Assembly: GCA_017562135.1 (NCBI GenBank)
Contig: QEYB01001642.1
Span: forward strand, 1,054,001 to 1,118,000
Length of the DNA stretch: 64,000 nt
Direction: 5' to 3'
Source: Dipylidium caninum
Lineage: Eukaryota > Platyhelminthes > Cestoda > Cyclophyllidea > Dipylidiidae
Part shown: piece by piece, positions 1-27,300 of the stretch
Layout: every line of letters begins with the position of its first letter
Numbering within the stretch: the stretch's first letter is position 1
Translations under genes and position numbers: made by a program
The notes under the pieces: generated by a model
Database searches by the model: none
Seen by the model: only the letters and a program-made list of their open reading frames with translations
What the model was told of the DNA's origin: nothing

Positions 1-236
1 ATTTTAGCTTAAATTACGTTCTTGTTGCTTTATAGTGTAAAAAAACATAAAAATTGAATGCAACACATGGTTAGCTAATTTTTATCCTCTAATTTTTTTA
101 TAATTTCCTAGTCTATGATACGTTTGTCGCCAACTGGCTGTTTTGCACGTCCAATGTTCATTGGTTACCCTACATAACCCTACTTGTCAACATCCACTTC
201 CTCGATAATTTGTTATAATTATTTTAATGGCCCAGA
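1..236. other. AT-rich upstream flank of the RELCH gene
   Basis: This stretch is AT-rich and I see no exon in it. It lies directly upstream of the RELCH start codon and probably holds its 5' UTR and proximal promoter. A TAA at 225-227 closes the RELCH frame upstream. An overlapping short reading frame starts at the ATG at 227 and ends at 271, in another frame. No TATA box is obvious. Confidence 0.5.
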
Positions 237-4743: not shown

Positions 4744-7700
4744 GTATTCCATCTCTTCTGCTACTTATCCGATTTGCTGCTGCTCTTCATAGGCGTCACT
4801 GGGAGGCGCGATCAGCGCTGCTTCCAGCCAGTGCTTGCCCTTTACCCACTTACTGGTCCCCTACAGTAGTTTAGGGCCGCTCGCTTGGTACACAGAGGGT
4901 TTGTGTCCTTTCCCCCCGTCAAGTGTTGCCAGCGACCAAGTCAGCCAGCATGACCACTTAAAGCTTAGTCAATTCTATAATGTAATTTCTGGTGTGATTG
5001 CGAAGTTTTCTCTTTGTTTTTAATACTTTCCACCTTCTCTTTGTTGTTGCCAAAACCGATTTGCGCTCACCTCATTTATTTCTCCAAACATTGTTCATTA
5101 ATGGACTACTTAGGAATTACAGACTAAAGCAACTACTCTCTGGCTATTTTTTAGTCGAAAAAAGGCTTAAACTGTCGGCGCCTTCACGTAATTATGGCTT
5201 ATCTACAGGGAATCTCGTGGTATGGATATATTTAATGTTAGAACGTCAAGGAGATGATGCAGCTCCCTTAGACCGGTACGCACAATGAAGCAGATAGAAC
5301 AGACGTCGATTCCGCTCACTCTGTCTTTGAGGTTAAAGGAAGTAGCGCGTGACGTTTATTCAACTCTACGGAAGCTCACACGGTTAGCTGCTAATGCATG
5401 CTCGGGGAGTTAGTCGCGGATACGCCGGCGTACGTGTATTCACTTGGCAACTCTCCGTGACCCCATGTTTCGAGTCCACCTCTTTGACCAGACTGGCGGC
5501 CACACAAGTTTCAATGGCTTTGTGCGGTTAGGTGTGCATGGTCCCCGCCTGGTTCTTTCCCACCCGTGGCGTGATTTGGCCTCACATCTTTTTTCCGTGT
5601 TCAGGTCCCCAGCGAATAGAGAGCGAACTGCTGCCCCAAATATGGTCTCAGTTGAACGAGCGACCGTCAGGCGACCTCCGAAAGCTCCTCGTCTCCGCAT
5701 GTGGTGTCATAGTACCCGCCACTCCGGTAAATGCAATTGCATATACTCCTGCGTGCGTTTATTAAACTAGGCCACTACGCATGAGTCCATCGCTTTGAAG
5801 TGGTCGTTATTATACATGTACATATCACTTCTCCATCTGCATCCTGCTGTTCATACTCATCCCTCCACTCTCTACTCGGCGCCTCTGGCCGGTTGGTGGG
5901 GTTAGGCAACGCTGAGGCCGAGGCGGAGGTGTGTGTGTGTGTGGACAGTATAGGGGTGTAGCCCCAATTTGTGCTCACGCTTCAATGAGTGGGCGCCGAT
6001 CAAAGTCCAGGGCAGGCATGCCTCACCGCACCCTTTGACAGTGGTCACTCTACGAAAGCGTCATTGTGTACAAAAGGGACGAATATTATGTTACTTTTGA
6101 CCCCGAAATTTGAAAATTTGGTAGAACACACCTCGTGACATCAAAATGCGCCCTTATGCACTGCAAAATAACTCCTCCTTTTACCCAAGGCCCTTTTTGG
6201 CCCATCGTTGTGCAACTATTCAAAATTATTCATAGGCTTCTGCGAATTCGATGTGCCTTGTACGCAACAATGCTAAAATGCGTGCCTCCGAACAAATAAT
6301 CCTCAGTCATTTCTGCTATTTGAATCCAGTGGAGTTTTCCCTCTTTTCTCCACTTTATTGGTCCCAAAGCTGACGGCTTTCCATTCAAGCTTATGTTCCC
6401 CGACTGCCTGGCGTCGAAACAGCGTCTAACGCACAGGATGGAGATTCCCTTGCAAGCACACTAATTCATGATTCCTCTGGACCCCATTGACAAAAAAGCA
6501 AGTGTCGTTTCGTGCTGATTTCCACTAAAAATGGACTAATGACGGCCCATTCAGAGGTTATCATTACCTATATGAACTAGCTCGATTCCTTGTCCACTCT
6601 TTCTAAGATTGTCTGTTCATTATATTTAGGTCGTTTTGGCCATAAGGCTCTGGGTCGTATACATCAAATTATAAATTCCGATTTTTTTCGTGTCATTGCA
6701 CAATTTCTCTTCGTCCTGGGGTGGAGGGTAAATCGTGCTTTTGTATTTACTTACCTTCCAGTCACGACTGCGCTCGTCTTTGCTCCTCTCCATCCTCCTC
6801 GAGTCGATTGAGGAGGAGAAGACGGAAGCGGTGCGTGCTTTAGCCTTGCGCTCTTTGGCCTGCGTCGTGGTGCTGATGGAGGATCAGGACAAAGTACCCC
6901 AAATGATAACCACCCTCGAGACTGCCCTTCGAGCTGATTGGGCTCGCGCGCCCCCCGCCATCGCCGCCCTCCCCTGCCATCCGTGCCAGCCCTGCTCCGC
7001 AGGCGGCGGGAGCATCAACACCTGCTCCAAACGCCCTCACCGTCTCCTGCAACTGGCTGCTGCCAGTTGTCGCTCAGTGGTGTCTGGAACTGGACTCTTT
7101 CAACGATCTACTCCTTGATCCATGGCTTCAACGCCTCAAGACTCTGTGTTATGTGAGTCCTTGAGTTCCCCAGTGCCCCAAATGTTACGCTATTCAACTG
7201 TGATAGTGGCCCTTGCTAGGGCCAGACGCTGATAACGGGACAGTGAGCCGCGGGCACACTCTGGCGTGAATATCTCTGAGTCCCACATTTTTGGCAATTT
7301 ACGTGTTTTCATTGACCAAAATGCCACATTATTTTCACCACGCAAAATATCAGCTCTTCACAACCCAGGGCCGGTTCCACTTTGCTCGAGTGTTAGGCAC
7401 TGCAAATCCCCTTCGCACCATTTCTCCGAATATCCCCTGAACGTCTTCCCGTAGACTTTGGATGTGTCGAAATCAAGGTTGAATGGCGGCATTAACTCTG
7501 AGACTCCGATGCGACTCAAGGCATCTTTTTCTGCGGACGAGTTCTTCTGCATCATGACAGTGCTCAATCGCCTTGTACCCTTCATGTTCGCCTTCGTCAT
7601 CGAAAATTTGGAATTCGTCCCACCTGATGACGTTGAAAGCTGTGATGAGTTAGTTCTGGACGACATCGATGGTGCTGCTGAAGATGCCGAAAACGGGAAA

Positions 7701-10700
7701 AGCGGAGAGGAAGGAGAGGGTAAAAAAGTGGAGGATCAAAGGGAGAAGCCGTCACCGCCCGGTGAGCTTCCTTTTCCTAAAGTACCTGTCTCTATGTGAT
7801 ATGTTTTGTTAAGCTGTGTACACATGACGAGTAAGAAACGGAAGGTTTTTTTGATTTTCTCGAGTGAATAACCCCATGTACATGTATTTTCGCCGCAGAT
7901 GTGGATCATTGTGGGTGTCTCTTCTCACCACAGTGCATTGTGGGCAGGAGACGCTACGAGAAGCTCCGTGGGAGATTTGAACAAATTTTAACTGGGTCGA
8001 AGGTAAAGCGCCGACTGTCGCAGCAGAGGAAACATTCAGTGTCAGGAGAAGTTGATGGAGACCAGGAATCAGACGATGAGAAGGCAGTATTGCAGTTGTC
8101 CACGACGTCCTTGAGCCATCAGAACGACGTGTGGCCGGCAATGGATATAATTCGACATCACCACCTCCTTTGCATCGCCCAGATGATGCGCGCCATCTCA
8201 CCTCGACCCATTGATACTCCTGCAGGTGGACTTCCAGAGGGCGCGGTGGCTGCTGAAACGCATGATGACCTTGAACAGGATCCTATCTCGTTCGAAGACT
8301 TTTTGCTTCTGATGCAGGTGTGTGTTCTTTCTGAATGCTCTTAAGTTGTCCTCGTTGCTGCACGATGATTGAAGTCGAACAGAGATTTGCCTTGTTAATT
8401 GACGGCCATTTGAATGCACGTCCTCTTCAAATTCACAGTCTGCAGAATAAGTAGGATGCTGATCGCAGATAACTCCGACTGCACAACTTGCACTTCACCT
8501 GGTGTAATCGTTCTTCAGCGAGTAAGTCCTTACTCATCCTTTTCTGCGTTATTTCCTCCCTTCCAGACCCAATTTGAGGATACATACTGGGTTCCGTGGC
8601 GTCTCCAACCCACTTCCACTGTTCTCACATTGTGCAAAGAACTCTGTTACTATGTCTCCCTTGTCGGCAAGGTATTTGGCGCAGCTGCGGTACAGAGTTA
8701 CCTCGTAGAACCCTTCCACACTCTACTCATGAAACGCAGTGTTCAAGGCTGTAAGATTCGGTGAAATATTTATTCTACCTTTATTTTATCAGTAGCGTTT
8801 TCGGAACACTTTCTTTTCCTTAGATTTGGAATTTGACCTAAAGGCTCTTCCATCCGGAGTGTTTGCTGCTTATTGTTGTTTACTAACATCGACAAAATCA
8901 GTGAGTTTCTTCTCAGTAGAGAGCTATAAGAAAATTATTGGTTCCATGGCTCATATATCGTTTTGACTTAAGGCATCTGAATATAGTAAGGTCAAAATGC
9001 TGATGGCCAATGCGATATTTCTCCACTCCCGTGACTCCTGTTCCCTTCATGGTGTGCGCGCTGCAATAATGGCCCTCTGGTATGTATTCACCCTCTTATG
9101 ACAACCAATATATTTGGGGAGTACATAAAATTTAGGGCTTTTTCAGTTTCTCACGAGCGTCGATGTAGGCTGATTTTGCCGTTAAGTAACTGGCCCTAAA
9201 GGCGTATTAGACGACAAAGGTAATTCAATTTTTGTTCGTTCATCTCAGCGAGTGTGTTTTTCAAATCCAAGTTTCCTTAATTAAGGAGGTAACACTTGTC
9301 TGGGTTTTGGCGATTACCAATACTTTTTTACCTTCTTTTGGTTGATTCTTGAGCAAACTCCTTACTAACAAGGAATACGGTTTGACGCTCTAGAATGTGC
9401 CTTAACCGAAGCTCGCAAATGCGATGGATAGCGACTGCAGTGTCTTCGAAATTTGTGAAAATGCGGACATTTTATGTGATGCACTATTTCTTTACGTACT
9501 TCAATCCCTTTTAGTCTCAGTGAGGACGCCGTGGTGATCGCGCAAGAAGTTCTTCTCCCAGCATTACGCTCTTGTGCCTCCTGCGCAGAGATCCGTCTGT
9601 GCGTCGAACTGCCAGCAACATCTTCTACACCCTCATAGCCTACCTTTCTGACGCTGGAGACCTGGATTCCGCTGCGACAACTAAATCGAATGAACTCCCG
9701 GCCGCCGCCGTAAAACATGGCAACCGCCATTTCTCAAAGACCAAGGTCCGTTGAAGACTTCTGCCTGCCACTATCCACTTTCCGACCTCAGCCTTCGATA
9801 CACGGGAATGCATATGCACTTGGAGGTCTTACGACCGCCTTTATGCAATATGGCCTTTCCCGCTATCTAAAGTAGCATACTCTCGCTTCCCCGGTTGTAT
9901 TTACTTCTGAATGTCATTTCGTTTTGACTGAATCCATGGAGCTAGGCGGGGCATAAAGTATCACCATTGAGCACTCGCTAACGTGTGTGGCTGCTCCAAT
10001 ACCCGTAAATTCTTGGTCTGTGTGAGTCTGGAGTGCAACTTTGCGGGCAGTGATTGTGTGACCTGTTTTTCCCTAAACAGCGGCCCCGAGTCTGTTGGAA
10101 GATTGTTGGCAACTAGCGAACCAATTGGTGCGTGACGACTTTGCTTCGATTGGGACGGTGGCTTTCACCGACCCTAATTCTTCTGCGTCCAGCGAGATCG
10201 CCCCAATAGATGAGCATTCAGCCGATTGGTCGTGCATCTCGGTGGCTCTGGGGGCCCCTCTTCTGTCTCTACAGTCGTATGCTTCGCTCGAGCCCCTATG
10301 TCACCGACATGGATCTCAAAGAAGGGCGAAGTCCTTCTGGAAATAGCAAAATTGCTGGGCAGGTGTAGATTACTCTCCTTTTCCACTTATTTGAAAGTCT
10401 CCACATAAGTTTGCCTCTTTTTCCTATGCGGCCTCTTTTATCCGCTCTTTTAAATTGTGTCTTAATGGTGCTGCGAAAAATGGCTGCCCGAACCGGATAG
10501 AAGGCACATCCACGATGATATCATAAAACCATTCGGAGCGGCTTTATCAGAGACCGATTGATTGTGGTCATTAATCGCTATTTGATGGACCCGCTGATAT
10601 AACCCCCTAATTTATATAAATATATCGCCATCGCCTCTTTTTCCACCAAAAGTGTAAGTGAATACCGTTAAAATGACCAAATAATTACACCTGCTTTGGC

Positions 10701-13700
10701 CCGTTCTTTCACTGTGACGGCTGTGTCAGGCGACTTGCAGCATCTCCATCTCCCCTCACCCTGTCCACCGACAGTTACAGCAAATTTATTCTTGCCTAGC
10801 GTTGAAAAGCAAGAAATTATATTCTGGAGGATTTGCCCGATATTCTAAAAAAAATACAAATGCGTGGCGTTCTTTACTACTTACTTCAAAACTCTTTTTC
10901 CGGCCGATGTCATCATAAGTTCTTTAGACCCAAAATCAGTGTCATTGCCATTGTACTGAGGTGCTTCGTGTCACCGTCATTGAAGTAGTCCTTAGGGAAG
11001 TCGTTTCGGGCGTCGCATTACCTTCGGGCACACCTCCCTCCACGAATCCCACCCAGTCTTGGGTTTGTTCCCCTCACCAGGTCTTGGCTCTGCTCGAGCG
11101 GTTGATGTCGATGGTGGGTGCGGGCGAACACTCTCCGCTGGACCCCTCCGCCGTGCAATTTCTTGTTCAGCGGCAGCACTGGGAGACACTCGTCACTGGC
11201 CTTCTCCAGGTCGCGAACCGCCTCTTTCTCACCTGCCCCGAAGACTTCCGCGACACAAGTAAGCACGCGAGGCTCAAGCCCACTTCATCAGCAAACAAGG
11301 TGCACCCTATAATTTCCTTTTAACTGTCACTCTCCGGGTGATTTCTCCATCTACTTTCCTGTCTTCTTCCCGGGTTACTCTTTAACTTACCCAAGTAATT
11401 TAAGGCAGCAATTACGTGATGAAAAGGGGCTCAAGTGGGGGAGGCCAATCCAAAGGGATGGAGTTAGAACGTATGTCCCCACGAAGTCAGTCCAGCTGTT
11501 ATTGGGCGCTTTGTTGTTTGTGGTTCCAGTGCAGCTCACTCCTAAGCATTCGGGTGGATTTACGAAACACGTCTCTATTGTAGAAATCCTCCCTTGGCTC
11601 TATCACCTCACCGAGATCAACAATATAATTCCCGACCTGGAGCAACGAACGCGGCTCGGCCAACGCTTGATCGCTGTCTTCTCAACCGCTGCCTTCTGTA
11701 TCCTTTCCCCTTGTCTTCACGGGCTGTTTTTGGGCCGGGGCCACGGCCGACGTCCATTCCCTCTTCTACTAACAGTTGACATTCATGAAGGCACTTTAGC
11801 CTCTAGGGAAGGGTCTTTCTCACCTACTTTCTTAACCGCTCATAAAAAAACATGCGTTGGTCCATTGTTAATTTACTTTTCCCTAAGAATCTTTGACGGA
11901 AGTAATTCTTCACTAGCTTTTCTAATTCGGACAGCGAGGTGTCGTCGTTTAAGACACCATTGTCGAGTTGAGTTGACTTTTTTTCCTTAGACTATGTATG
12001 ATCGTCTCTCCCATGCGTTGGCTAATGTAGAGGACTGAGTGTGTATTCCGCGGGGAGGTAATCGCTTACGCCTTCCCTTTTATCGCGGGAGGACGGATTC
12101 CCCTCTCATCCGTTGTGTTACCTTGACGGCGAGACGCACGCACAGGCCTGGGCACCGAGACGGCGATGATGGCCTGGGTGATTCCCGGTTTAGATCGGCT
12201 CCGTCTAGACTTCGTGGAAGCCGGTGAAAAGACGTCGGCTGAGGAGCTGGAACAACTTTCTTCCGACCTCCGTCAACGCCTCGCTAACTTCTCCAGTCCC
12301 CAGTGAGTTTTCCCCACTCTCAGTGCCCGTTCTCAGAAAGTGTCTGTCCAATTTGGATTCCTCAGTAAAAAAGTTGTCGTTATGACAACCAGTTGACTTT
12401 GCTGCGAACTCTCGAGATTCCAGACATTACACAAGTTTCGCCCGAAATATTCACTTTTTTAACCGATAGTGAAAGAGTTTTTATTCATTCTCACACGTTC
12501 TCAGAGGTCTGCATGGTTGTGACCCCGAGTCGTCATAAAAAAAGCCCACATTTGCGGGCATCTTTGGCCTAAAATTTACTCTTTTTGCTGTGATTTTGAA
12601 GACCAGACCTTATATTTATGTTGAGCACAAAAAGTGTATTTCTGTTGTGGATTTCTGTTTTGTTTTTGCACTTCCAACTTGAAAGATAAACGTTAAAATT
12701 TTTTGAGCGAAGATGGAGAGTCAACCACGTGTGCTCCGCCCACATCCCCCCGCTCTACTGGTGCCCCTTTGATATGCCCAGCCGGCCGTCCCGGGTTCCG
12801 TTTCTGGCCACTTCCTGTGCACAATCCGGCATCGCTCACCCACACCGGGCAAATGAATTAGTTTTTTTGCCAGACCTGTTTTCACCCACTGCAGAACGCT
12901 GCACACTGGACCAGCATGCGGGCAGAAAACCTCTCCCCAACGTGCGAGGCCGTCTCCCTCTGAGGCCTCGTCTCCACCGCGCCAAAAGGGCATCCATTTG
13001 TGCCGACAGCAGTAAATGGCGTGGCTCCTGCCGGCCGCACTGTACGGTTTCTGGGTGTTGCGCTATCGGGGGGTTTCTTCTGTGAGGAAGTCCTTTATCT
13101 TCGCCTTCCCTCCACGCCTGGAGTAACTCTCAGCGCAGCTGAGGGTGCTGTGCAACGCCAAGACTTGTTTTACCATATGCTTTGTAATCCAGCCAGTTGT
13201 ACCCGTCGTGGTGTCCCGAAGTCCCATCCGATGTGGGGTTTCGAGTCCTCCGTCTTCACGTGGTCCTGCCAGTGACATCGGCCAATCCTTAAAGCGATGT
13301 GACAGACACTCAAAGTTGAAATGCTGCGGCGTTTGGTATGAAGCTCGGCTTTGTTGTCGTGCCCTGTCTGACACGTGCCTTTTTGCCTTGCGGTCAGTCC
13401 TCTCAGTCAGAGCAGGCCTTCCGTCGGCTTCGGGTGGACCACAGACTGCCACTTGCCACCTTGCTCTCGACTGTGCGCGCTAACCTTGTTCACTTCTATC
13501 TGACGATCGGATCTTCCACCGTTCTGTGGCGCCTTTCGCGCTTCGAGCACAACGAGCACGCCGCTCCTGCCCGCGGGTCGCAGTGGTCGTCACAAGGTGG
13601 TTCATGGATGATTCCCCGTTGTGTGGGTTTCCGCGTCCTCAACGCGCCGAGACCCTCGAGTGCACGGAGGAGCAGTAGTTCTAAAATCTTTTTGCCCTCC

Positions 13701-13908
13701 GCACTCCCGAAGGCCCCCACAGCTAACACCTTTCCTTGGCATAAATTTGAATTCATTTTCCGCCACATTTACTTCTAGACCAGTTCAAGCGGCTGCAACT
13801 GATGCGACAAAGAAGCGTCTGCGGCAGAAGTTCACAAACCTCCTGAATTCAGCCACCGACTCTTCAGTTTCTTATGGCAAGAAATTTCCTTTCGTCAAAC
13901 ATTCCTGA
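237..13908 (+). CDS. RELCH: RELCH homologue: LisH, coiled-coil and HEAT-repeat protein (about 20 exons)
   Basis: In animals RELCH (KIAA1468) binds Rab11 and promotes sterol transfer from recycling endosomes to the trans-Golgi network. That role is family knowledge. Seen here: exon 1 carries a helical block (LTALEFHYELLE, then FFSNPENF) matching the RELCH N terminus. Exon 2 carries a LisH motif (ALRFLINEYLL...). Exons 3-4 are coiled-coil-like. Exons 5-19 encode helical HEAT-type repeats that can be followed block by block through the family (CLHPRAAVRDQLL; LALRSLACVV; WVIPGLDRL). Exon 20 is a short basic tail ending at TGA 13906-13908. I estimate about 1450 residues, somewhat longer than the vertebrate protein. 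The start is the first in-frame ATG after an upstream stop. Two exons need a one-base shift to keep the conserved frame (near 6940-7030 and 9555-9590), and the exon 15-17 junctions are not fully resolved. Gene identity is certain enough; single boundaries are less so. Confidence 0.88.
670..772 (+). other. RELCH: GC-AG intron (RELCH intron 1)
   Basis: The only junction that keeps the frame between the N-terminal block and the LisH exon uses a GC donor (AG|GCAAGT at 668-675), which matches the consensus for this minor donor class. The acceptor is CTCCAG ending at 772. The nearby GT at 674 would put the exons out of frame. The intron is 103 nt and interrupts a codon after its first base. Confidence 0.7.
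5605..13908 (+). other. RELCH: RELCH exon map, part 2 (HEAT repeats and C-terminal tail, exons 8-20)
   Basis: Exons: 5605-5726, 6762-7152, 7455-7761, 7899-8317, 8567-8750, 8824-8900, 8973-9079, 9515-9745, 10081 to about 10241, 10961-11258, 11530-11697, 12146-12302 and 13779-13908 (includes stop). Frames agree across all junctions except within exon 9 (change of frame between about 6940 and 7030), within exon 15 (between about 9555 and 9590), and at the exon 15/16 junction, where the observed phases disagree. Exon 16 opens with LLEDCWQLANQL, which fits the family, but its 3' end is unresolved. Exon 17 may begin at 10940 or 10961. The last intron is long (12303-13778), and I see no further exon in it. 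Confidence 0.7.
5929..5943. repeat. (GT)n simple repeat
   Basis: A short uninterrupted GT run inside RELCH intron 8. Confidence 0.8.
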
Positions 13909-15469
13909 TCACGCGGCTAGTGTTGACTACCTTATCGTGGCTGTTACCTTTTTTGTTCCTGTGAATTTTATTTGCTACCTTTTTCACTCGCCTTTCTTCC
14001 CCTCCCCTGCCGCATGGCTCTCACTGCCGCTGTCGCAACACCCGTACATGCCTCACACACATATCGCCACTGCTTATCACCCGTGAATACACGTCGCAAC
14101 GCAGTTTTTTCTGTCGAATGCTCGCCGGTCTTAGTGCTTGTGGAGGCGACAGCACCCAGCACCAGAACTGCGAATCGGCCGCGTCAACAATCGCGCCTGC
14201 CAAGATGCGGCAGCGGCAGCAGCAGCAGTGGCTCCGCCCTGGGTGCTCTCGAATCGTGGGAAAAAGGCGCCGTTCTGGTCAGCCGGCCAGTTTTATAGCA
14301 GTCATTCGTTGGACCACCTCCGCCACTCGCATGAGCGCTCCCCGTGTCGGGCGGGTGGGCCTTTGTCCCTCCGACCCAAGGCTGCCGCAGAGGAGCGGGT
14401 TGGCTTTTCGTGCGCTCCACGTCTCGACGACCTGCAGGGCACCCAAATGGCGTGGCAGAGCGTTGTCAGGAGGCGGAGGGTTGCAGTGGCCTTTCGCATT
14501 GCTCTATTGGCGCGTAGGGAGAGAAGGCAGCTGCCCGCGCGACTCCCCTCGGTCATGCTCGGGGTGGGACACAAAAAATGCCACTTTTAGACTTGACGGG
14601 GAATAAATAGACGGGGCAGTGGAGGAGTGAAGGAAAGCATCAAAGTGGGACAACTTAGAGGGCGTTACGAGAAAATTGGACACCCTCTTCTGAGCACCGC
14701 CTTTTCCACCTCCGCTTTTTTCCTCAAAACCGCGTGAGAAAATGGCAGTGAGACACTTTGGCGTGGAAGACGTGTTCACGTGCGCACTCGCCTTAAGGCG
14801 ACTCCGTCATCGACGCCCTGTTCGAGGGGCTGGTGGGTCGTGGAGCCGATTTCTCGTATCGGACTCGGTCTTGAAAGACCAGACTCGGGTCCCGACGTCA
14901 TTCCGTGCCTCCATTCAAAGCTACTCGTTCCTTGAATAGCGTCACTTCGGCCTACGTCTCAAGCGTAGTTTCTTAGGCAGTCGCCTCATCCCGCAGTAAT
15001 TCGCCGCAGAGTCAAAACTGGCCAGCAGTCGCGTGGTGCTACGAGTTACATTGTGAGGTCGCGTGGCTCTGAGCCTGAAACCGCCGCGCCTCCGCGAGGG
15101 TCAGCAGTCGTCACCCGCCACGGCGGCGGTCCCCTCCGAGGACCCCCGGCTGTGCGGGCGCAATTTTATGTCGCTCTCTCTGCTGACTGTGTGGTGTTGC
15201 GCACTGGCGCGCCTCCTTGACGGCGTCAGGGCAAACGGAATGTAACCTCTTCTGAGCGAATTGACGCTGCAGTCCACATCGACCCGACCTCTCGGTCTGT
15301 TGTGCAGTCAGGGACGCCCTCTGTGAGCTTCGGCGGTTAGACGAGAAGCTGAGCGACGCTGTGGATTCGTTGCCTTCGCACGACCCCAAACGTGGCGCTC
15401 TCCGAACTCCCCGAGGGCGCGCGCGCGTGTGCTGGCGTGCGTGCATGCGTGCGTCCACCCCGCACCCTC
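13909..15469. other. GC-rich intergenic spacer after RELCH
   Basis: There are many overlapping open frames on both strands, as expected from high GC. None has splice signals, a signal peptide or family similarity that I recognise. It probably contains the RELCH 3' UTR, with an AATAAA at 14602-14607, followed by distal upstream sequence of the peptide gene at 15541. A CAG/GCA-rich patch lies at about 14212-14232. Confidence 0.5.
14602..14607 (+). terminator. Candidate polyadenylation signal (AATAAA) for RELCH
   Basis: This is the first AATAAA hexamer I find downstream of the RELCH stop codon, about 0.7 kb away. It is only a motif match. Confidence 0.35.
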
Positions 15470-15504
15470 ATTGGCGAGCAGGAGCGGTCCGCCGCTCTAT
15501 AAAA
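15470..15504 (+). promoter_or_regulatory. CCAAT and TATA core promoter of peptide gene A
   Basis: An inverted CCAAT box (ATTGG, 15470-15474) lies 24 nt upstream of a TATA box (TATAAAA, 15498-15504). The start codon is at 15541, so initiation about 30 nt after the TATA box would leave a very short 5' leader. Confidence 0.65.
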
Positions 15505-15540
15505 GTCCCCGCGCTGGTGGCCGTCGGCATTCGCGGTAAG

Positions 15541-16801
15541 ATGAGGGCGCTGAAGCTATTCAACCTCCTCTGTCTGGTGCTTCTCATTCTCCTCGTCGAA
15601 GACATCTCCTCGATGACAATGCGACTGCCGAGACGCCGGTACATTCCCGACGGGCTCCAGGACGGCGAATTCTTCGACGCCGAGGAGGGCGATGACTTCG
15701 ACTACGGAGAAATGAGGGGATCACACCGTCGTAATTGTAAGTCGCTTCTTTTCTTCCGCTCAATGGCACCGTCCGGCACGAAGCGGCCTCTTTCCGAAGA
15801 AGCCCAGTCGAAGGAGAGCTTTATCTTCATTGCCGAAGGCCGCCTTCGGTTCCTCTAGCGTCTGGTGCAGGGTTAGGCGAGAAGAGACAGGGTAAAATAG
15901 ATTTCCAAATTCTCGTTCGTACGTCTTTTTCACTTGGATGACTACTGCGCATCCATCCATGACGGTTCCGCACTGACTTCCAGCTTTATCCGTTTAATAA
16001 GAAACGGCCTCTCGCAATTTTCCTGGTCGGACTGTGTCACATGAGTTTTGGTGTACCTTGGAGGAACAACCGATTTAGAGCAACAAGCGACGCTCTGATT
16101 AAGACACGGCACGACTCTCCATCGGGTAGGCAAAGTGTTGTTCTTCAAGGAAAACCCACAGAGAATTTTAGTGGTTGCCAATTTAAAGGGGTATCTTCCC
16201 GTCGGACACCATCTCTCCGCCGACAATCTGCCCGAAGCGTCCAAAAAAGTGGGCTGTCAGAGGCGAACCGCGCCTGATGGCAGCTGAGCTCGGCAGGGAG
16301 TCCCTGTTGTTTCGAGTGTGCGGGCGAACAGAAGGCGTAATTTTTTGTGGCCTGCGGAAGCGAGCCTTCTTTACGAGCGCATTGTGCCGTGTTGAGTCGT
16401 CTCCGTCCCACGCCCGACCGTCGGTCCGCGCAGTCGGACGTGGCGAGGGTGGAGACGACTGCGCGGATTGGGTGGGTGCTCGCACGCGGTGGAGTGACTT
16501 GACTCCGCTCCGCTCCACTCCCCGCCTGAGCGCTCGAGTGCGCACACCAAGTCGGCGCACGCGCCGCTCGTGGGTCTGCGAGCAGACCCCGTGAACACAG
16601 TCCGAGCGGCCCCACGAGTGCAACGGCACCCCCATGTGCCGGTGGCACTTGGGCAGTGACTCTCCCACGCTCGCTGCACCTCCACCCACGGTCATTCTGG
16701 GGCGATCGGGCCACGACACGGCCACAAATGCCTCGTTAACCATTTCCTGTGGCGTCTTTTTAGCCTATGCGAAGAGGCAGCTGCGCAATCTCGCCGGATG
16801 A
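15541..16801 (+). CDS. Peptide precursor A: two-exon, signal peptide, C-terminal amidation motif
   Basis: Predicted 77-residue secreted precursor. Exon 1 (15541-15736) encodes a strong signal peptide (residues 1-24, MRALKLF then a Leu/Val/Ile core), a basic RRR (31-33), an acidic stretch (about 41-55, rich in Asp/Glu) and RR at 63-64. The donor is T|GTAAGT, phase 1. Exon 2 (16764-16801) follows a pyrimidine-rich acceptor (CTTTTTAG), joins in frame and encodes SYAKRQLRNLAG, then TGA. A dibasic KR, a short peptide and a terminal Gly are the hallmarks of a peptide released by prohormone convertase and amidated. Here the predicted product is QLRNLA-amide, whose N-terminal Gln could cyclise. I cannot assign a known peptide family. 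The exon 2 choice rests on splice signals and on the matching tail in the gene at 19593. The function as neuropeptide or hormone is inference. Confidence 0.6.
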
Positions 16802-19486
16802 AGTCGGGGTGAGTTGATAAGCCTTGTGTCTGGTGAAGTTACTCCTGTTCCTGTCACCACCGCCAGCGGGACGGCCGAACGTCCCAAGGGGTCGGATCTC
16901 TTGTTCACCGCTAACGTTTTGTTTTCCAGAGGGGGCGCGGCCGGAACTATGGAGAAGAATCCATCTCGCCGCCTTGGATACTGGCACCACACCGATTCGC
17001 GCTTTATTTCACCACCTACCACTTCTCCCTCGCTGTACCTCCCGCCCACCTTCTCCATTCTGATTAATCACTAGTATTTTGTAAGGGTCAAGTAAATGAA
17101 GCATAAAAGCTGCATTTCCCATGTAGTATTGCACCGATCTCCACGCCTTCTTCCGCACCGAGACGGGGCTTTCGCGCACACGGGCACTGGAGACGACTCG
17201 TCGGAGGGGCAGTAGACTGACCCCCTGGGAAGAACGTGGGCTCGTCCAGCACGGGGGACGCGTCCGACCTTCTGCGCTCACTGGGGCGGAGGGCTGCAGC
17301 ATCACATGGCCCACCTGGCGTTCACTTCTACGTTGTCGACGCTGTTTCCAAACCCTTCTCCCGTCCCATTTAAGATTTACTTGCCAGCTAAAATCGCGGC
17401 ATGCCGAAGTGCGGTGGTACGCTGTTATTTGGGAAGTGGTGCTGCGGAGCGGATATCACTCGTGCGCAGTCTCGTCATGATGAGCAGCCGGTTAATCCGC
17501 CATGTTTGGCAGCACGATGGCCTCCACCGAAGCACGTGGTGAAACAGTCGGCTTCCCTCGGGCGCTAAACTCGCGACGCGGCAAATTTCATTTTGAGCCG
17601 GCATTGAAGGCGGCGTCGATTTCTCTTTGCATTACTGGGGATAGTTTGAGCCTGTTTATCGCATGAGCGTTCAAAACGTCTCTACATTCTGGTCGCAACT
17701 GAGTGCCCGCTTTTATACACACCACACAAAATGCGGTAATAATAAATAAAAAGGAGCCAGTTCAGGCAGCCTACCTTCTTGAAACCCTTGGGGGTGTCGA
17801 TGGCATAAAAATAGGCTTTTCTGCCAGAGTCGCCTTAGCACAGGGTATGGAACACTCCAGAGAAGGTAATCGCACGAGCACCGCGACTGGGGTCGTGGCG
17901 AGGTGTAGTAGTGGGAAGTGTCAAAGTCGACGCTCCATTAAATGGCAGCGCTGGAGGAGATTTAGCCCCGGAGTGGAAGCATTCGCCTCATCTAGATTCC
18001 ACCGCAAAACTATAAACACACACGTGATTGCTGCCTATTACATTTTATTAGCCACGCCGAGTTATTTCTCTCACGAAACGTCAACAGTGCCGGTAAATAT
18101 ATCCGAGGTGAGTCACCAGTGCAGCTGAGACGATCACCTCGGCCCCAGCAGGGGAGATGCTGTCGCGCCTACCGACGGTTAGACACAACGTCTCCCCACG
18201 TTTTGGGGTTTTCTGCTACTGCGGCGTTTTGTGTCGGCTGCAAAGCCTAGCGCACTCCCGAGCTCCTGCACTCACTAGCAGTCAAACTTTAAAATCCACA
18301 CAAAATACAAATCTTTACTCAAACTAATCAGTAGTAATTTTATTTCATTCCATGCTACCCATTGGGGTATTTATGAAGTGGTCCACTCGTGCGGCTTAAT
18401 CCTCAAGATGCTGCTCACCATTTAAACCCGATGTCCTTCCTGCACTCGTCTACTCTGGGCAACAAATTCATTGATTTCCAGTATACCAATGGTTTCATAT
18501 TATCCTAATTTTCAAAATTTTGATATTACGAGGCTTCGTTCTTCCCAACTTCCAAGCTGACACATTCAGGCATAAGATGAATAAACAGAGTAAATATTTA
18601 GTCAACTTTCTCACGCACGAGACGATATAAACAGTGGAGACAAATTGCTAAATGAGTGTGAAAGCTATACACTCTGGATCATTCGGTTTTCGTGGGAAGA
18701 ACTTATGCCACAATGAGATGGTGTGTTTGTAGGCTTGGGAAACAGCGGCCAGAGTAGGGGGGCAGGGAGAATCAAGCGTCACAGAAGGCATTATGTGATC
18801 GGGTTACATCGAGGCCGCGCGGAACACGGCTGAGTCCTTCTCCAGCGAACGGTTTCAGAATACGTGTTACTCAAGGGGCTGGCTAACAGACAGCTGATCC
18901 ACCGACGCGCTAGCCGTCATTCCACCCTCTCCGCCTGGAGTTCCCTGAGGCTGCAGGCATAAGGACTTTGTGACTAATCTGCTTTTGATAAGTGCACGTT
19001 TTTCCAACAGACTCCAGTTATTTCGTGTGGCGTAAAATAGGCCTGTGGTTGAGGCGTCATTCCGTTAGGACGTGGGATAGCAGGTTCGTCATCTTGAGTT
19101 GACTTGAGGGGAAGTGTCCACTGCCAGGGGCAAAGTAGGCTTCGTCCCAGCAGTGGCCGGCTGGAAGGTATACACAAGAGGTTCGGGGTCAAAACCCACA
19201 TTTGCTGTTCTTGAGGCAAGCGCCTACGCGGTCGGCGTCCGTAGTGCCACGAAGAAGCCGCAGTCAGGGCCAAACGCAAATAACTTTGTTGTGACTGTTG
19301 CTATCCGTCGAGGCGACGACGACAGCTGCGCCGAGAGACGCTGAGGCTAGGCGCCAGGCGGGTTGGATGGGAAAAGGTGTTTTTGCGTGGGGGCTGCACC
19401 GACTCGCCTCGGTGGAGACGAGCAGAAGCCCTCCACGGTGAGCCAGCAGCAGGTCTCAGCTGAGACTCTACCGCCTCGTGCACCAC
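16802..19486. other. Spacer between the two peptide genes
   Basis: No convincing exon, RNA gene or mobile element is seen. AATAAA-like motifs near 17741 and 18587 could serve peptide gene A, but both are far from its stop. The sequence is GC-rich at both ends and more AT-rich around 18.3-18.7 kb. Confidence 0.4.
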
Positions 19487-19539
19487 CCAATCACGGCGCC
19501 GCACCAATTGCGCACCCGGTGCCTCCCGTGCGTATAAAA
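19487..19539 (+). promoter_or_regulatory. CCAAT and TATA core promoter of peptide gene B
   Basis: Two CCAAT boxes (19487-19491 and 19504-19508) precede a TATA box (TATAAAA, 19533-19539) that lies 60 nt before the start codon. The layout resembles that of peptide gene A. Confidence 0.65.
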
Positions 19540-19592
19540 CGCGATGGGCTCGTGCTCTCTCAAGTTCAGGCTACACAGAAGAGGCCCTCGTG

Positions 19593-22187
19593 ATGAACAA
19601 GACCCTTCTTTTCATCCTCCTCGTCATCGCGCTGACGTGGTTAGAGACGTGTGAGTGCAGACGAATCGCCCGACGCGATGCACACCAACCTGCCCTTCAA
19701 GGTGAGCGTCCCCCCCCCTCCCCTTTCCTGCCACGCCTCGCTTCCGTCCCTCCACCCTCTCCCCCCGCCAAGAGCACTCCACCCGCAGCGACTAGTGACC
19801 CAACAAGGCGGAACGGGAAATTCCCTTCCTACGCGTCAGCCTTGAGCCAGAGCAGTGTATGAGAACGGAATGTTCTTCAACAATGGAACGGGCTGGCATG
19901 CGGGCGGGCGGGGTGGCAGGAGACACCGCGAGGTGAGCATTTCACACGGCTTAATGGCACCCCCTCGTCGACGAAGTTTTGCTTGAACTCGCTCTGAAAA
20001 TGCAGCGATTTGCTGTCGTGGCGCCACTCCATTGCCGAGGGGGCGAGTCCTCCTCGGGTGGGACTCCATCGCGCCTCGAAAGGCACCAGAACTGGGCTTG
20101 CTTTGCTGAAGTGAGGGCGCCACATCCTGGTGAACTCAAGGCTAACCCTCTGTGGACGACTGAACCGGAGACTTCGTCTCGTCTGCTCACGCGACGCGGA
20201 GCATTCTTTCATTCCGTCGCGGCTCTCTTGAGCGGTCTAACCCACGGGACGCAGACCTCTCCGCGCCACACAGAAAAACGCTGACGCACAGACGTAATTA
20301 TGCAGTGGAGACGCACCTAGACAGGGTGAGGGTGGTTGCAGGGCTGTGATCACATTTGGACCCTAAATTTATGCGGCCCCTTGGCCTCACTTGCGCGAAT
20401 CCCCACTTGACGCCTCAGGATGGGAGACACAGGCGTTTCGCCCGAGAGCTACGGGGCCCCACTCAGGCTGCCCCTCTGGGTGCGCCCCGCGGATCGCCGA
20501 CTTGAGGGCGCCTGGCGGGAGCGATTTGAACGAGCACCACGAAATCCTGGCAAACCGATTACATAGTGGCAGCGATGACTCCACCATTTCCCACTGGCGC
20601 GGTGACAGCACGTTGGCGTTGCCATTTATTCTCGCCCCTGTGGAATTGCTAATTTCCTTCGTCACTGTGTGCAGACCGCTGGCGCGTCAAGTTTTCGCGT
20701 GGGTCGCACACATCTGAGTCAGCCATGAGACGGCGAGACACGGCAAGCGGTGGCAGCTTGTCGAGCGATTCACGACGGCGACGCGAGTCCGCCCTGCCTG
20801 TTCCGCGGCGGCCGGGGTCCTCGCAGTGGCGATGGCCCTGAAGCGAGCGCATCCAGGGCTGCCCCACCCCCGAGTACCCTTCCCCCATGTCTGATGTTGA
20901 TTTGCTCTGATTTCCTCTTTTACCGCTTAATAGACGTAAACAAGCCCGCGGACCACCACCACCCCCGGCGAAGACACTCCTCAGGTGCGTCTTTATTCCT
21001 CATTACCTCCCTAACCTATTGCGAGTGCCAGGCTGGCAAAAGGCGTTGGGGCGTCGTCTTTTGGAATCGCTGCTTCGGGGAGTAGCCGGTAAATGCCGCA
21101 CTGGGTGCGCGCTCGGTTCGACCCGGATTAGACTGCCACTCAGCTTAGGCTTCGCTAAATTGCGCGCGTGTGTGTGTATTTCTCAGCCTCCTTCTACTAG
21201 TCTGAGCCTGACGCGGTCTCCACATCAACATTCCAGCGGGCTGCTCGCCCTCGCATGACACATGACGCGTTTAATCGAGTTACCCTGCGCGCGGTGAGAC
21301 ATCGCTCAGGTGCTGTGTTGACAGCCACCTACGATGGCCCCGCGTCGTCGTCGCCCTCCTCCTCTCAGCGAGTGCTTCACTGCCTCTCGGGTGTGAACTC
21401 CCCAGCTTACCGGGCCCGCGAGGCCACACAGCACTGCCGTTCGACTCTGCGTCCACCGAGCTGTCGGCCGTAGCCGGTCTGCAGTGACTTGTGTGCCCCT
21501 GCCCCCCCCCAAAAGACAAATTCGGTTCAAAATGCATAGCGGTTTGGCACGCGTGCGTGGCAGCAGCAGCGCAGACAGCGCCTTGGCAGGGAGGCACGAC
21601 TGACGCAACCGCGTGGGGGCAGTCATCAGACTCGAGGGCCACCACGGATGATGTCGCTGCTGCCGGGTTGCCAATGCCGCCACCCAGAGGCTCCGCCGCC
21701 GCTGCTGCGGTCTGAGCTGCCACGAGCGCCGAGTCGCTTTGTGCCTCTCACGCCGTTGGTTGTACGCGAAAACGCCCCACTTCCGGACGCAGACGCACTT
21801 TCCACCTCCTGCTACTCCCGCCGCGGAGAAGCCAGAAATGATGCATCTCGGTAGAAAAGGCCACTTTAATTACTAAGCTGGGGCTGTTGTGAGCTTAATT
21901 GTCGGGCGAAGAGGCGAGTAGGGAGCGCAAGCGGGTCGGCGGCCATCTGTTGGCGCTACGGCAGGGGAAGTGGTTGGTGCAGCAACCTTTCGCATCCGGT
22001 TTGCTCAAAATGATGCGCAAACGGTGCGATGAGGCGCGGTTCAGTGCCGCAGCGCGCGTGTGGGATTCTCATTCACCTCCACTTGTGCTTTTTCCCTTCT
22101 TCTGTTGCAGCATCAGCATTAGCAGCGGCAGTGGTAGATGGCAGAACAAAACTTCAGAGGAGGTCGCTGCGCCACCTGCACGGCTAA
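19593..22187 (+). CDS. Peptide precursor B: two-exon, signal peptide, C-terminal amidation motif
   Basis: Predicted 61-residue secreted precursor. Exon 1 (19593-19701) encodes a hydrophobic signal peptide (MNKTLLFILLVIALTWLE) followed by Cys-Glu-Cys, RR (23-24) and RR (27-28). The donor is CAAG|GTGAGC, phase 1. Exon 2 (22111-22187) follows an excellent pyrimidine tract (TTTTTCCCTTCTTCTGTTGCAG) and encodes an Ala-rich helix-like stretch, then LQRRSLRHLHG and TAA. The predicted processed product is SLRHLH-amide, released at RR (53-54). The tail aligns with that of the gene at 15541: basic pair, polar residue, Leu-Arg-x-Leu-x-Gly, stop. The intron phase is also the same, so I read the two as paralogues. 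The intron is long (19702-22110), so RNA evidence is needed to confirm the pairing of exons. Family unknown to me. Confidence 0.6.
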
Positions 22188-25132
22188 GCTCGAGTAAGGC
22201 GGCGGGCTGGTGAGTTGAGGCAGCTCTGCGCACCGTTTTTCAGCTCTAACGAGGCACCCACGGGTGTGGGAACGCCTTAAAGCGGTCACATGTGCCTCGC
22301 TTCCACGCGTCTTTCGCCTCCGGTGATCCGGTCCCTTCACGCGTGCACGTGTTAAGGCGGGCAGTTGTTTTCCCGGCCGAAGAGGCAGGCAGTTTCGTTG
22401 AACGCCCTCATGACCCCCTGCGGGGCCTCGTTTGCCGAGAGGCCTCTTAGCGCTAGGCAGTCTGGCGTCTCCTCGTCGGGGAACGCCTTCACCAGCAGAC
22501 ACGGGCAGCCAGGGCGTGGGCGCTTTCCACAGTGGGGCGGGGCGAGGCGGGGGGGGGGGAGCAAAACCTCCTGTCTCCCTCCACTTTGTGTGTTTTGCAG
22601 GTCTTACTCACAACTTATAAGTGACGTCTCTCTCCACCCTTCCACTGACCTTCTGACTCGCGCACCATTTTCTCTCTTCCAGGTCGCAGCTCGTTGGCCC
22701 CTCGTGGGAGACAGTTGGTCGTAGTCTTTGCACACACGCAACCCGCGCGAAATACCCTTTCATATTCCTCCACTCGCCTTGGCACCCCTGACAGTTGCGC
22801 CACCTTTCCCCGCTTCCCCCTTCTGCCGTTGGGTGCAGAAGCACCTCATTCTCCTTGCTAATAACACGTTTCACAATCGCATTGTCCGCGCTCACGCGCT
22901 TCTCCTTCTTCAACTGCAGTCGGGGAGGAAGGCGGACACCGGGTCGAGGCAGCCACAAGTAACAAACACCAGAGCACCTTCGGGGGCGGAGGAAGAGCAG
23001 AACCTCGCCAGTTGGCGAAACCCCAGTCGAGGGGAGTGCGCGGGTTCCCTTGGTCACAGCGGGTCCTCATGGCGCTAAGAAAAGACTGGGGGCAGGTTAG
23101 GGGAGGGCATCATTCGGTGTCAGGCTGAACTAAGGACTCGAAAGATTTAATGTGCGGAGCAGCGTCGCGTTCGGCTTGCTTCAGCGCCGCGTCGAGGCGG
23201 GGTGCGCCTTTTCAGGGGAGCCCCATCACCTCAAGCACCGACCGGCTGCTTTGTCAAGCGAGTGCGGGTCAGACCGCGGCCTCGCCCGGGGTCGCAGCAG
23301 ACAGACTGGCGCGGTCAGGTCACCCAAAACAAATAGACGAATATCCATGTTCTGCGATGAATGGCAAATCGTTCGACATTCGTCTCGGCGAACGCGATTA
23401 TCCAGTCAAAGTAGCTGTGCTGACGATGAGTGGCAGAACCACGCATCGCCTCACAGTTGTTTTAAGTAGGCCATGCACAAAATCAGGCACCGCTTCGGTG
23501 AGTCTTGCGGTGTTACGTCTGTCCACGTGGCCTTGGGGCTGCTGGGGCGTAACAGAGTTCAAATCCGCGTCTTTTCCTCCAAAAACTGCACCCTAATGAC
23601 ATCGCAGGGGCGTTTGACACTTCGTGGATTGCGCCGTGCCCACCGAGCCGGCGCCGTCGTTGGTGGCGGGTAGCGGCGGAGCAGGTGGTGAGGAGGGCAA
23701 AACGCGGACGCGCTGGGAGCCATGCAAAAGTTGCGCGGTTCTTTAATGCCCCACCCCGCTTCTTCCCCCTGCACGGCACACACAAATGGGCCATCAGCGC
23801 ACTCGCGCAGAACATCCGCCGTGGGAGGATTTGCGTCGCAACGGCGGGAGCATGACCAATTCACGCCTTCCCCGTAACTTGTCACCGATGGGCTAAACCG
23901 CCGCGAATTGGTGAGGACGCAGAAGGGAGCGGGACAACCGACGGGCAAACACCTCAGAATATCGGACTCCTGGTCGTCTCGTTGATTAAATTCGCTAAGA
24001 ATCGGGCCGCCTCCACAGCGGCGCCGAAGGCTGACACCACGTTCGGCAAAACAGCATGTTAGCAGGTCTTTTAGCCGTGTTCGGCCTCGTTGTTCGCTGT
24101 TTGCCGACCTCGAAACGCGTGCTCGTCGGCGCAGAGGTCACAGACAATCGCTCGCTTTGCACCAGAACGTTCTGCAATAAACTCCGAGGTGCAGCTACGC
24201 GTTTGCAATGCGACGACAATCACGCAGAGATCATGTGTCGCCGCGCAGCCATGACAGGGGCGCGCCGTCGAGCACGTCGCCGCCTGCCTCGAAGTGAGCT
24301 GACGTGCCTGAGGCGCCCCATCAGTGCGCGGTCGACGCTGGGTGCCACGAGTACGAGGCGCTGACAGCGCATGGTCAAAGGCGTGCATGAGTCCCCACGG
24401 CGGGCCCCCACTGCGCACCGGGCTTCGGCGGATCTCAAGGCGTCCCAGACGCCGAGAACGCACTCCACCTTTGGCCAGGTTCAACACAAAACGGCCCCGC
24501 AGGCAGAACAAGCCGGCCGACGATGCCCCACGCCCCGGAGGCCGCCATAACAAGGGGGGAGCCCCTTCCACCAGAAGCATCTCCAAGGCTGGGGCACCTA
24601 CACACATGAGCCCGAGGCCGCAGGGACTACCACTAGCGGCCCTCCGCAAGGCAGACGCAACCCCCCCCCCCCCCAATAGCCATGGCCCGCCGTCAAATCT
24701 TAGAACAAGCCTCCTCGTGACTGTCCTGGAAAACCCAGAGGCGGAAACCGCCACAAGACCATAAAACACAGCGAGACCTCAAAAAGCCCAACTAACACCC
24801 ACACCAATCCAAATACCACAAAAAATTGGCGACAGCAACAGCAAACAGGGTACACAAACACAAGATACCCAAGCTTATAAGCCAATCGACGGAGAAAGGC
24901 AATGCTTCAACAGCCCTATATTTAGAACAAGAAGTAGACTTAGTATGCTACACACCGGGGGCACAAAATCGAGCGGTAATAAACGTTGAGAAGGGAAATG
25001 ATCTAGCAACACACCATCCAGTTAACGAGGATTCGCATTGGATAGGATGCAGCACCGGAACTAAAAAATTAATGATTAGGATACCTGAAACAAGAAAAAA
25101 CACAACAAATGCTCCACTTACAACGAGCATAC
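22188..25132. other. Spacer between peptide gene B and SDHA, with a strand-skewed block
   Basis: No gene is recognised. From about 24.44 to 24.88 kb the plus strand is strongly C/A-rich, so RNA read through from SDHA would be G/U-rich. It includes a run of 14 C at 24661-24674. From 24.9 kb to the SDHA stop the sequence turns AT-rich and is probably SDHA 3' UTR. Confidence 0.45.
24661..24674. repeat. Homopolymer of 14 C
   Basis: An uninterrupted C run; it is G14 on the SDHA sense strand, about 0.46 kb past the SDHA stop codon. Confidence 0.9.
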
Positions 25133-27300
25133 TTAGTAAGAACGGATCTTTGGCGGCACAGTGGGACACTCATTTTGATCTAAGGTCTTGTCAATGACCG
25201 GCCTGTACGCGAGTTTAACGGCACCGGTTTTAACATTTTGATAACACATAGTGTGTTTTCTCCAGTGTTCGGACATCGGCTTTTTCGTTTGGCCTTCAAG
25301 TGGTTTGGAGTAATCATACTCATCAACTCTCTGTCGGAAGTCTTCACGAGCATGTGCTCCACGAGACTCTTTCCTGGCCTCAGCAGCAACAATGGTCTGC
25401 ACAGCATTGATGAGGAGGTTCTGCAACTCAATACCCTCGATCAGATCCGAGTTCCAAATGAGGCTCTTGTCAGATACCTTGAGGTTGTCGTATTTATCAG
25501 CATAGAGCTTCAACATTTTGTCAACCCCAGCCTTCAGTACAGGACCGTCTCGGAATACAGCAGCGTGTTCTTGCATGGTGAGTTGCATTTCAAGGCGAAC
25601 CTAAAGGCGATACAACTCAATATAAATCAGAGGTTTAATTAAAAAAATACATATCAAAAAACGCAACGCACATCACCAACGGGGAATTCGCCTTTGCCAT
25701 TGCGAAGCTTGTCGATGTTTGCAACAGATTCCATGCCTGTCTCAGGATGAAGCTCAGGACCAGCATCACCAGGCTTGCACTTTTCAGCGATATCAAGGGC
25801 GCAAGCACGACCGAAAACAACCAGATCAAGGAGCGAGTTGGCACCAAGACGGTTAGCACCATGTACAGATGCGCAGGCAACTTCACCGGCAGCATACAAA
25901 CCGGGGACGATCTTATCCTTCCCAGTGACAGCATCATAAGTAATAACCTAAACAAGTGGCGCATGAAGCCTGAGCCAACGACAATCCGTATAAACGAACA
26001 TATGCAGAATTCGCACATACCTGCCCCTTGTAATTGGTCGGCACACCCCCCATGTTGTAGTGGACAGTTGGCAGAACGGGAACGGGTTCCTTAGTTACAT
26101 CAACACCGGCAAAGATTTCGGCGGTTTCGGAAATGCCAGGAAGGCGAGATTTCAGGATCTCAGGAGACAAATGGTGCAACTTAAGGTAGCAGTGGTCCTT
26201 ACGGGGCCCAACACCGCGGCCCTCACGAATTTCAATGGTCATGGCACGGGAGACCACATCTCTTGATGCCAAATCTTTCGCGTTAGGAGCATAGCGCTCC
26301 ATGAATCGCTCTCCCTCGCTGTTTATCAAATAACCACCCTCGCCGCGACAGCCCTCGGTGATTAAACACCCAGCACCATAGATACCTAGACATTTCAAAT
26401 AAAAACAAGACACTAAGCATACCAGTAGGGTGAAATTGGACAAATTCCATATCTTCATTAGGAAGACCGGCCCGAGTCACCATAGCAGTACCATCGCCTG
26501 TGCAGGTGTGGGCAGAGGTGCACGAAAAGTACGCCCGACCATAACCACTTTATAAAACCTAGGGTTATTTTGAAATCGGCCACCTACCCGGTAGCAAGAA
26601 TAGTGTTCTTGGCGCGAAAACGGTGCAATGTTCCATCTTCAAGGCAAATGGCATTAACCCCACGGCACACACCGTTCTCCATCAGCAGATCGAGGGCGAA
26701 ATACTCAATAAAGTAATCTGTCTCATAACGAAGCGAACGTCCATAGAGGGTATGTAGAAGTGAGTGCCCGGTTCGATCAGCAACAGCGCAGCATCGGTGA
26801 GCCTGGCCGCCTTTACCGTAGTCGAGGCTCTGACCACCAAATGCGCGCTGGTAGATTTTACCATTCTCCAAACGGCTAAAAGGCATTCCGTAGTTTTCCA
26901 GCTCAATTACAGCTTTCGGAGCCTCTTCGCACATGTAGTGAATAGCATCTTGATCACCCAGCCAATCCGACCCCTTTACTGTATCAAACATATGGAATTT
27001 CCAGTGGTCCTTCTCCATGTTTCCGAGAGCTGCATTGATTCCACCCTGCGCGGCGACAGTGTGGGAACGGGTAGGGAAAAGTTTCGTGACACATGCAGTC
27101 TTAAATCCTTCATTGGCCAGGCCGAAAGCAGCACGAAGACCAGCACCTCCAGCGCCAACAACAACGGCGTCGTAGGTGTGATCAATGATAGTGTAATCCT
27201 TCCCTACTGTTGAGACATGGCGAGAGGCTCCCGCAAAGGTCGTAGCGTAGCCTAAACGTGACGCAACGGAAGCGAAAGAAGCGCGAAGCAACGACGCCAT
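25133..27300 (-). CDS. SDHA: Succinate dehydrogenase flavoprotein subunit, mitochondrial (complex II)
   Basis: SDHA oxidises succinate to fumarate with covalent FAD in the mitochondrial inner-membrane complex II. In helminths the same complex can run in reverse as fumarate reductase (family knowledge). Five minus-strand exons, 26588-27300, 26423-26547, 26021-26385, 25672-25947 and 25133-25600, join in frame to 648 residues, the usual family length. Seen: an Arg/Ser-rich mitochondrial presequence; the dinucleotide-binding motif [22 protein letters not shown], which carries the His that binds [27 protein letters not shown]; and the conserved C terminus ending IRSY. An in-frame TGA directly precedes the ATG, which fixes the start. 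Introns are 40, 37, 73 and 71 nt from 5' to 3'. No frame break is seen. COQ6 lies head-to-head. Confidence 0.97.

Follow-up and report, generated by a model that had tools for sequence, protein, structure and literature searches.

Results

Gene models

The window analyzed here, a stretch of 64,000 nucleotides from the tapeworm Dipylidium caninum (contig QEYB01001642.1), carries two tandem reading frames that can each be spliced into the precursor of a short peptide (Table 1). The initial annotation had described both as two-exon genes with a signal peptide in exon 1, a phase-1 intron and a tiny exon 2 ending KRQLRNLAG-stop in gene 1 and RRSLRHLHG-stop in gene 2, and the spliced frames, their coordinates, the intron phase and the two tails were all found as claimed. 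In spliced translation, 15541-15736 joined to 16764-16801 gives a frame of 77 amino acids that ends HRRNSYAKRQLRNLAG-stop, the whole predicted precursor being MRALKLFNLLCLVLLILLVEDISSMTMRLPRRRYIPDGLQDGEFFDAEEGDDFDYGEMRGSHRRNSYAKRQLRNLAG-stop, and 19593-19701 joined to 22111-22187 gives one of 61 amino acids that ends KLQRRSLRHLHG-stop, in both cases across a phase-1 intron. The succession of dibasic site, short peptide, Gly and stop is present in translation at both ends, and the peptide occurs just once per precursor. A second dibasic site (RR) lies ahead of NSYAKR in the gene 1 precursor.

Table 1. Features of the two putative precursor genes (positions in the window)
Feature	Position	Strand	Remarks
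Gene 1 TATA box (TATAAA)	15498..15503	+	In sequence; ATG 43 nt below
Gene 1 exon 1, coding	15541..15736	+	Hydrophobic leader; acidic spacer flanked by basic sites (RRR, RR); phase-1 donor
Gene 1 possible alternative last exon	15859-15955	+	Good acceptor; ends KRQGKIDFQILVRTSFSLG-stop
Gene 1 exon 2, coding part	16764..16801	+	(S)YAKRQLRNLAG-stop
Predicted peptide 1 and amide-donor Gly	16778..16798	+	QLRNLA-G
Gene 1 probable 3' untranslated region intron	16809..16929	+	7 nt past stop; donor rank 6/416, acceptor rank 1/10
Gene 2 TATA box (TATAAA)	19533..19538	+	In sequence; ATG 60 nt below
Gene 2 exon 1, coding	19593..19701	+	Hydrophobic leader followed by RRIARR; phase-1 donor
Gene 2 probable extra coding exon	20934..20984	+	51 nt, adds DVNKPADHHHPRRRHSS and an RRR site
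Gene 2 last coding exon	22111..22187	+	ASALAAAVVDGRTKLQRRSLRHLHG-stop
Predicted peptide 2 and amide-donor Gly	22164..22184	+	SLRHLH-G
Gene 2 probable 3' untranslated region intron	22210..22682	+	22 nt past stop; donor rank 3/416, acceptor rank 1/29

Splice sites were scored with generic matrices, not ones trained on tapeworms. By these scores the gene 1 donor at 15737 ranked 12th and the gene 2 donor at 19702 second among the 416 GTs of positions 15541-23000, and the five proposed donors, which include the extra exon's donor and the two past the stops, occupied ranks 2, 3, 5, 6 and 12 in these 7.5 kb. High donor ranks were also found at sites that fit no exon, 18108 being first and 19933 fourth. 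The acceptor of gene 1 at 16764 ranked second of 63 AGs scanned and that of gene 2 at 22111 second of 138, where acceptor 21369 scored slightly higher. Both genes have an intron candidate directly past the stop codon; nonsense-mediated decay is not expected from introns so near the stop.

The top-scoring acceptor of the gene 1 intron was 15859, slightly above 16764, and this acceptor, one of five alternatives tried for the gene, led to a different Gly-stop end past a KR site, KRQGKIDFQILVRTSFSLG. Judged from sequence, what favours the end at 16764 over that at 15859 is solely its likeness to gene 2. A 33-nt in-frame exon at 15859-15891 (+; SSGAGLGEKRQ), which combines the same good acceptor with a weak donor (5.4), was considered and not adopted.

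In gene 2, the 51-nt exon candidate has phase 1 on both sides, and the gene 2 tail is in frame with or without it. Its acceptor ranked fourth of 128, and it was the only candidate of such quality in the gene 2 intron, while such candidates turned up in 5 of 300 random introns, a figure flattered by the thresholds, which were the candidate's own observed scores. None of the other acceptors tried for gene 2 (five, and three more with the extra exon) gave a Gly-stop end. Gene 2 thus probably carries a further coding exon and would not be a two-exon gene, so that the two-exon plan first proposed needs revision here, in addition to the intron candidates past the stop of both genes.

Promoters and leaders

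The view that these are two separate genes was supported, and hydropathy, the measure by which the leaders were judged, fits a signal peptide in exon 1 of each: both leaders are strongly hydrophobic, with a best 11-residue mean of 3.82 in gene 1 and 3.28 in gene 2. Fourteen ATG frames of at least 30 amino acids in the window begin with a hydrophobic leader and four of these have a TATA box within 150 nt, among which the two genes show the highest leader hydropathy (next 3.17). The 200 kb flanks hold 34 hydrophobic-leader frames, five of them with a TATA box and none of these five reaching 3.2; they were scanned in 10-kb pieces, so that frames spanning piece ends could be missed. Over the total of 264 kb, a TATA box and a hydrophobic leader hence occur together in nine frames (four in the window, five in the flanks), of which only the two genes reach at least 3.2, a line that was chosen after the window scan.

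The shared tail and the kinship of the two genes

The initial annotation had considered it unlikely that two spliced genes would arrive at the same tail by chance. For the general layout this does not hold: the pattern dibasic-x(3-12)-Gly-stop occurs 49 times in the window, compared to 36.2 on average and at most 52 in 30 first-order random windows, and because the count falls within the random range the layout is meaningless when taken alone. For the tail itself the claim stood. The pattern [KR][KR]xLRxLxG-stop, which was derived from the finding itself, occurs twice in the window, at the two genes, and in none of the 30 random windows; it is also absent from the 200 kb flanks, where LRxLxG-stop without the dibasic site occurs once. 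Among the 153 distinct layout hits in the window and flanks, 110 of the 11,628 possible pairs (0.95%) share at least three of the last six residues before the Gly, and the pair formed by gene 1 and gene 2 does so; over the last ten codons the two genes are identical at 20 of 30 nucleotides. Since the tail pattern and the hydropathy line of 3.2 were both set after seeing the data, the tail and leader counts serve as guides and not as independent p-values. By these counts, the shared LRxLx tail exceeds chance.

Outside the tail the two genes have little in common. BLASTP gave no alignment between the precursors at E values up to 100, no significant DNA likeness was found between the genes (best blastn E 0.24), and their pI differs strongly (6.56 and 11.38 for genes 1 and 2). 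Where the precursors do share residues, these (R, L, R, L, G) are confined to the last eight. The proposal that the genes are paralogs therefore keeps the support of a shared tail above chance and lacks that of a significant alignment, and because neither precursors nor DNA align significantly, the case for kinship is built on the tail, on the tandem arrangement and on the gene plan.

Database and genome searches

Pfam returned nothing above cut-off for either precursor, and for gene 1 nothing even at E values up to 10. Gene 2 came nearest to PROL5-SMR with the extra exon (E 0.12) and to LPAM_1 without it (E 6.4); both lie far below the Pfam cut-off and were rejected. A PDB sequence search with gene 1 and an Rfam search over the window at gathering score gave nothing.

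The genome searched comprises 106 Mb in 920 contigs. Using both precursors as queries, a search that is blind to short tails, we recovered only these two genes and one weak match to gene 2 (E 3.47, L005), which was rejected as its locus has, on visual reading, the look of a transporter gene. With the 25-residue last exon of gene 2 as query, the sole match was that exon itself. Searching the genome with short peptides proved uninformative: the gene 1 tail of 16 residues failed to find itself, and the tool that missed this tail also returned no match to synthetic repeats of GLRNMRM or AVRLMRL.

A copper type II monooxygenase C-terminal domain, of the kind found in the amidating enzyme, had one match in the genome (L006), and convertase-type P-domains were found at four places (L012-L015). 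According to a 2022 review, direct evidence for amidating and convertase enzymes in cestodes is lacking (PMC9042389). A neuropeptide F (NPF) gene was found on another contig (69% over 35 residues, E 1.4e-10; query tapeworm neuropeptide F). The last exon of the triosephosphate isomerase gene matched PDB chain 6oog_A, the Taenia solium enzyme, at 90 of 99 residues as counted from the alignment (194 bits, against 146 for the chain that scored next), and together with the NPF gene this makes a tapeworm origin of the genome most probable. There is in addition a probable second NPF-like exon (L011:1505-1743, -, E 0.96), with a leader and a peptide that ends ITGRP directly before a splice donor.

Genomic neighborhood

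Exons of a succinate dehydrogenase flavoprotein subunit lie at 25133-27300 of the window on the reverse strand, with FAD_binding_2 and Succ_DH_flav_C domains in the three frames scanned. Positions 36693-61300 on the forward strand are probably taken up by one long hemicentin-like gene, whose extent was estimated visually from the list of frames and which showed a VWA domain in its first frame and immunoglobulin domains in three further frames scanned. Besides those of the two genes, one TATA-led frame whose leader is hydrophobic (55206-55592, +, hydropathy 3.17) is located inside the stretch with immunoglobulin domains. Two parts of the window are GC-rich, 14001-24000 (53-61%) and 34001-64000 (51-58%), compared to 39-52% at 1-14000 and 46% in the 200 kb flanks.

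Discussion

Receptor recognition is usually carried by the C-terminus of a peptide, and Ala-amide or His-amide ends are unusual among amidated neuropeptides. The nearest flatworm peptides that we found are those of flatworm npp-14 / planarian spp-4, GLRNMRM-amide and GLRLMRL-amide (Table 3 of Collins, 2010, PMC2953531; flatworm npp-14 GLRNMRM-amide also in PMC9495596), which are amidated, as predicted for the pair, and carry x-Leu-Arg-Asn-(Met/Leu) near the N-terminus. However, they end in Arg-Met-amide or Arg-Leu-amide, whereas the predicted peptides are one residue shorter and end in Ala-amide or His-amide, and in the sources consulted the C-terminus of this family is not that of the pair. 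A second likeness is with the molluscan LRNFVamide family, which includes LRHFIamide among the nine scallop variants so named (PMC5996578; also PMC4200219) and has a five-residue amidated core of the form Leu-Arg-(Asn/His)-hydrophobic-x. The pair would share the alternation of Asn and His with this family, a correspondence that is suggestive, no more. In contrast to the pair, position 4 of that core is Phe instead of Leu and the last residue Val or Ile instead of Ala or His, so that the core differs; the scallop has nine variants against one peptide per gene here, and in the parts of these sources consulted nothing links the two beyond three residues. The NPF/NPY genes of tapeworms resemble the pair in their small precursor, their leader in exon 1 and, as predicted for the pair, their amidated C-terminus, but NPF is a long peptide that ends RPRF-amide, and neither predicted peptide has the RxRF/Y-amide end of NPF/NPY.

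We consider it likely that this tandem pair encodes precursors that each contain a single copy of an amidated peptide, (pGlu/Gln)-LRNLA-amide in gene 1 and SLRHLH-amide in gene 2. This explanation draws on the frames and tails, the good splice sites, the TATA boxes and leaders, the tail shared above chance, the intron candidates past the stops, the gene 2 acceptors of which only the proposed one gives a Gly-stop end, and the processing-enzyme domains and NPF gene of the genome. Speaking against it are the missing alignment between the precursors, their contrasting pI, the rival gene 1 end reached from 15859, the single peptide copy, the unusual Ala-amide and His-amide ends, and the genome search that returned little beyond the two genes. 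In this scheme each tapeworm gene would have a TATA promoter of its own and make a small secreted prohormone, which its leader would route into the secretory pathway. There a prohormone convertase would cleave at the last dibasic site (KR in gene 1, RR in gene 2) and the amidating enzyme would convert the terminal Gly to an amide, releasing from each precursor one peptide, Gln/pGlu-Leu-Arg-Asn-Leu-Ala-amide from gene 1 and Ser-Leu-Arg-His-Leu-His-amide from gene 2. The N-terminal Gln of peptide 1 could cyclise, and the computed MH+ of the predicted amides is 696.415 (pGlu form) or 713.442 for peptide 1 and 761.453 for peptide 2. The most likely targets would be one or two related peptide GPCRs on nerve or muscle. 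For both genes we infer transcription, splicing, cleavage and amidation, as well as receptor and tissue, from the DNA.

It is improbable that one or both of the exon joins are wrong and the tail concerned is a chance reading frame. Such a reading would be in line with the frequency at which the dibasic-x(3-12)-Gly-stop layout arises by chance (49 in the window) and with acceptors 15859 and 21369, which slightly outscore those proposed and the first of which yields a Gly-stop end of its own. Against it, the same rare tail is found past both leader exons, its phase is alike in the two genes, and an intron candidate follows directly past the stop. A comparably small probability attaches to the genes being real and secreted with an active product that is longer or unamidated, such as NSYAKRQLRNLA or, in gene 1, the acidic spacer. 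This spacer does sit between basic sites, with a further RR ahead of NSYAKR, but the residues common to both precursors are confined to the last eight and the remainder does not align, which speaks against such a product.

The likely reading as tandem amidated-peptide precursors is compatible with a further proposal, which concerns novelty: with nearly even chances, the pair belongs to a flatworm precursor family that has already been published, for example among the 325 neuropeptide sequences that Koziol et al. (2016, as cited in PMC11196405) annotated in twelve flatworms, of which seven are tapeworms. In the parts of PMC11196405 consulted, Taenia crassiceps has 30 npp orthologs including numbered paralogs (npp 20.2, 20.3, 20.5), one of which could be this pair. 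None of the published flatworm peptides compared matches either tail, and neither the tails nor LRNLA and LRHLH were found in the part of the literature searched, which argues only weakly against an already published family. More speculatively, and on balance rather doubtfully, the tandem pair may found an undescribed tapeworm family of single-copy LRxLx-amides, maybe the flatworm counterpart of the lophotrochozoan LRNFV/LRHFI-amides, in which gene 2 would give two forms by including or skipping the 51-nt exon, and alternative acceptors might provide gene 1 with two endings.

In conclusion, the pair are credible but unproven candidates for new nerve-peptide genes, and their general type, that of amidated neuropeptide precursors, is an ordinary one. 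Gene finders and repeat-based searches easily miss precursors that are short, contain a single peptide copy and are interrupted by introns of 1-2 kb. Flatworm neuropeptide signalling is a proposed target of drugs against worms, and, if confirmed, the pair would add two ligands to be matched with orphan receptors.
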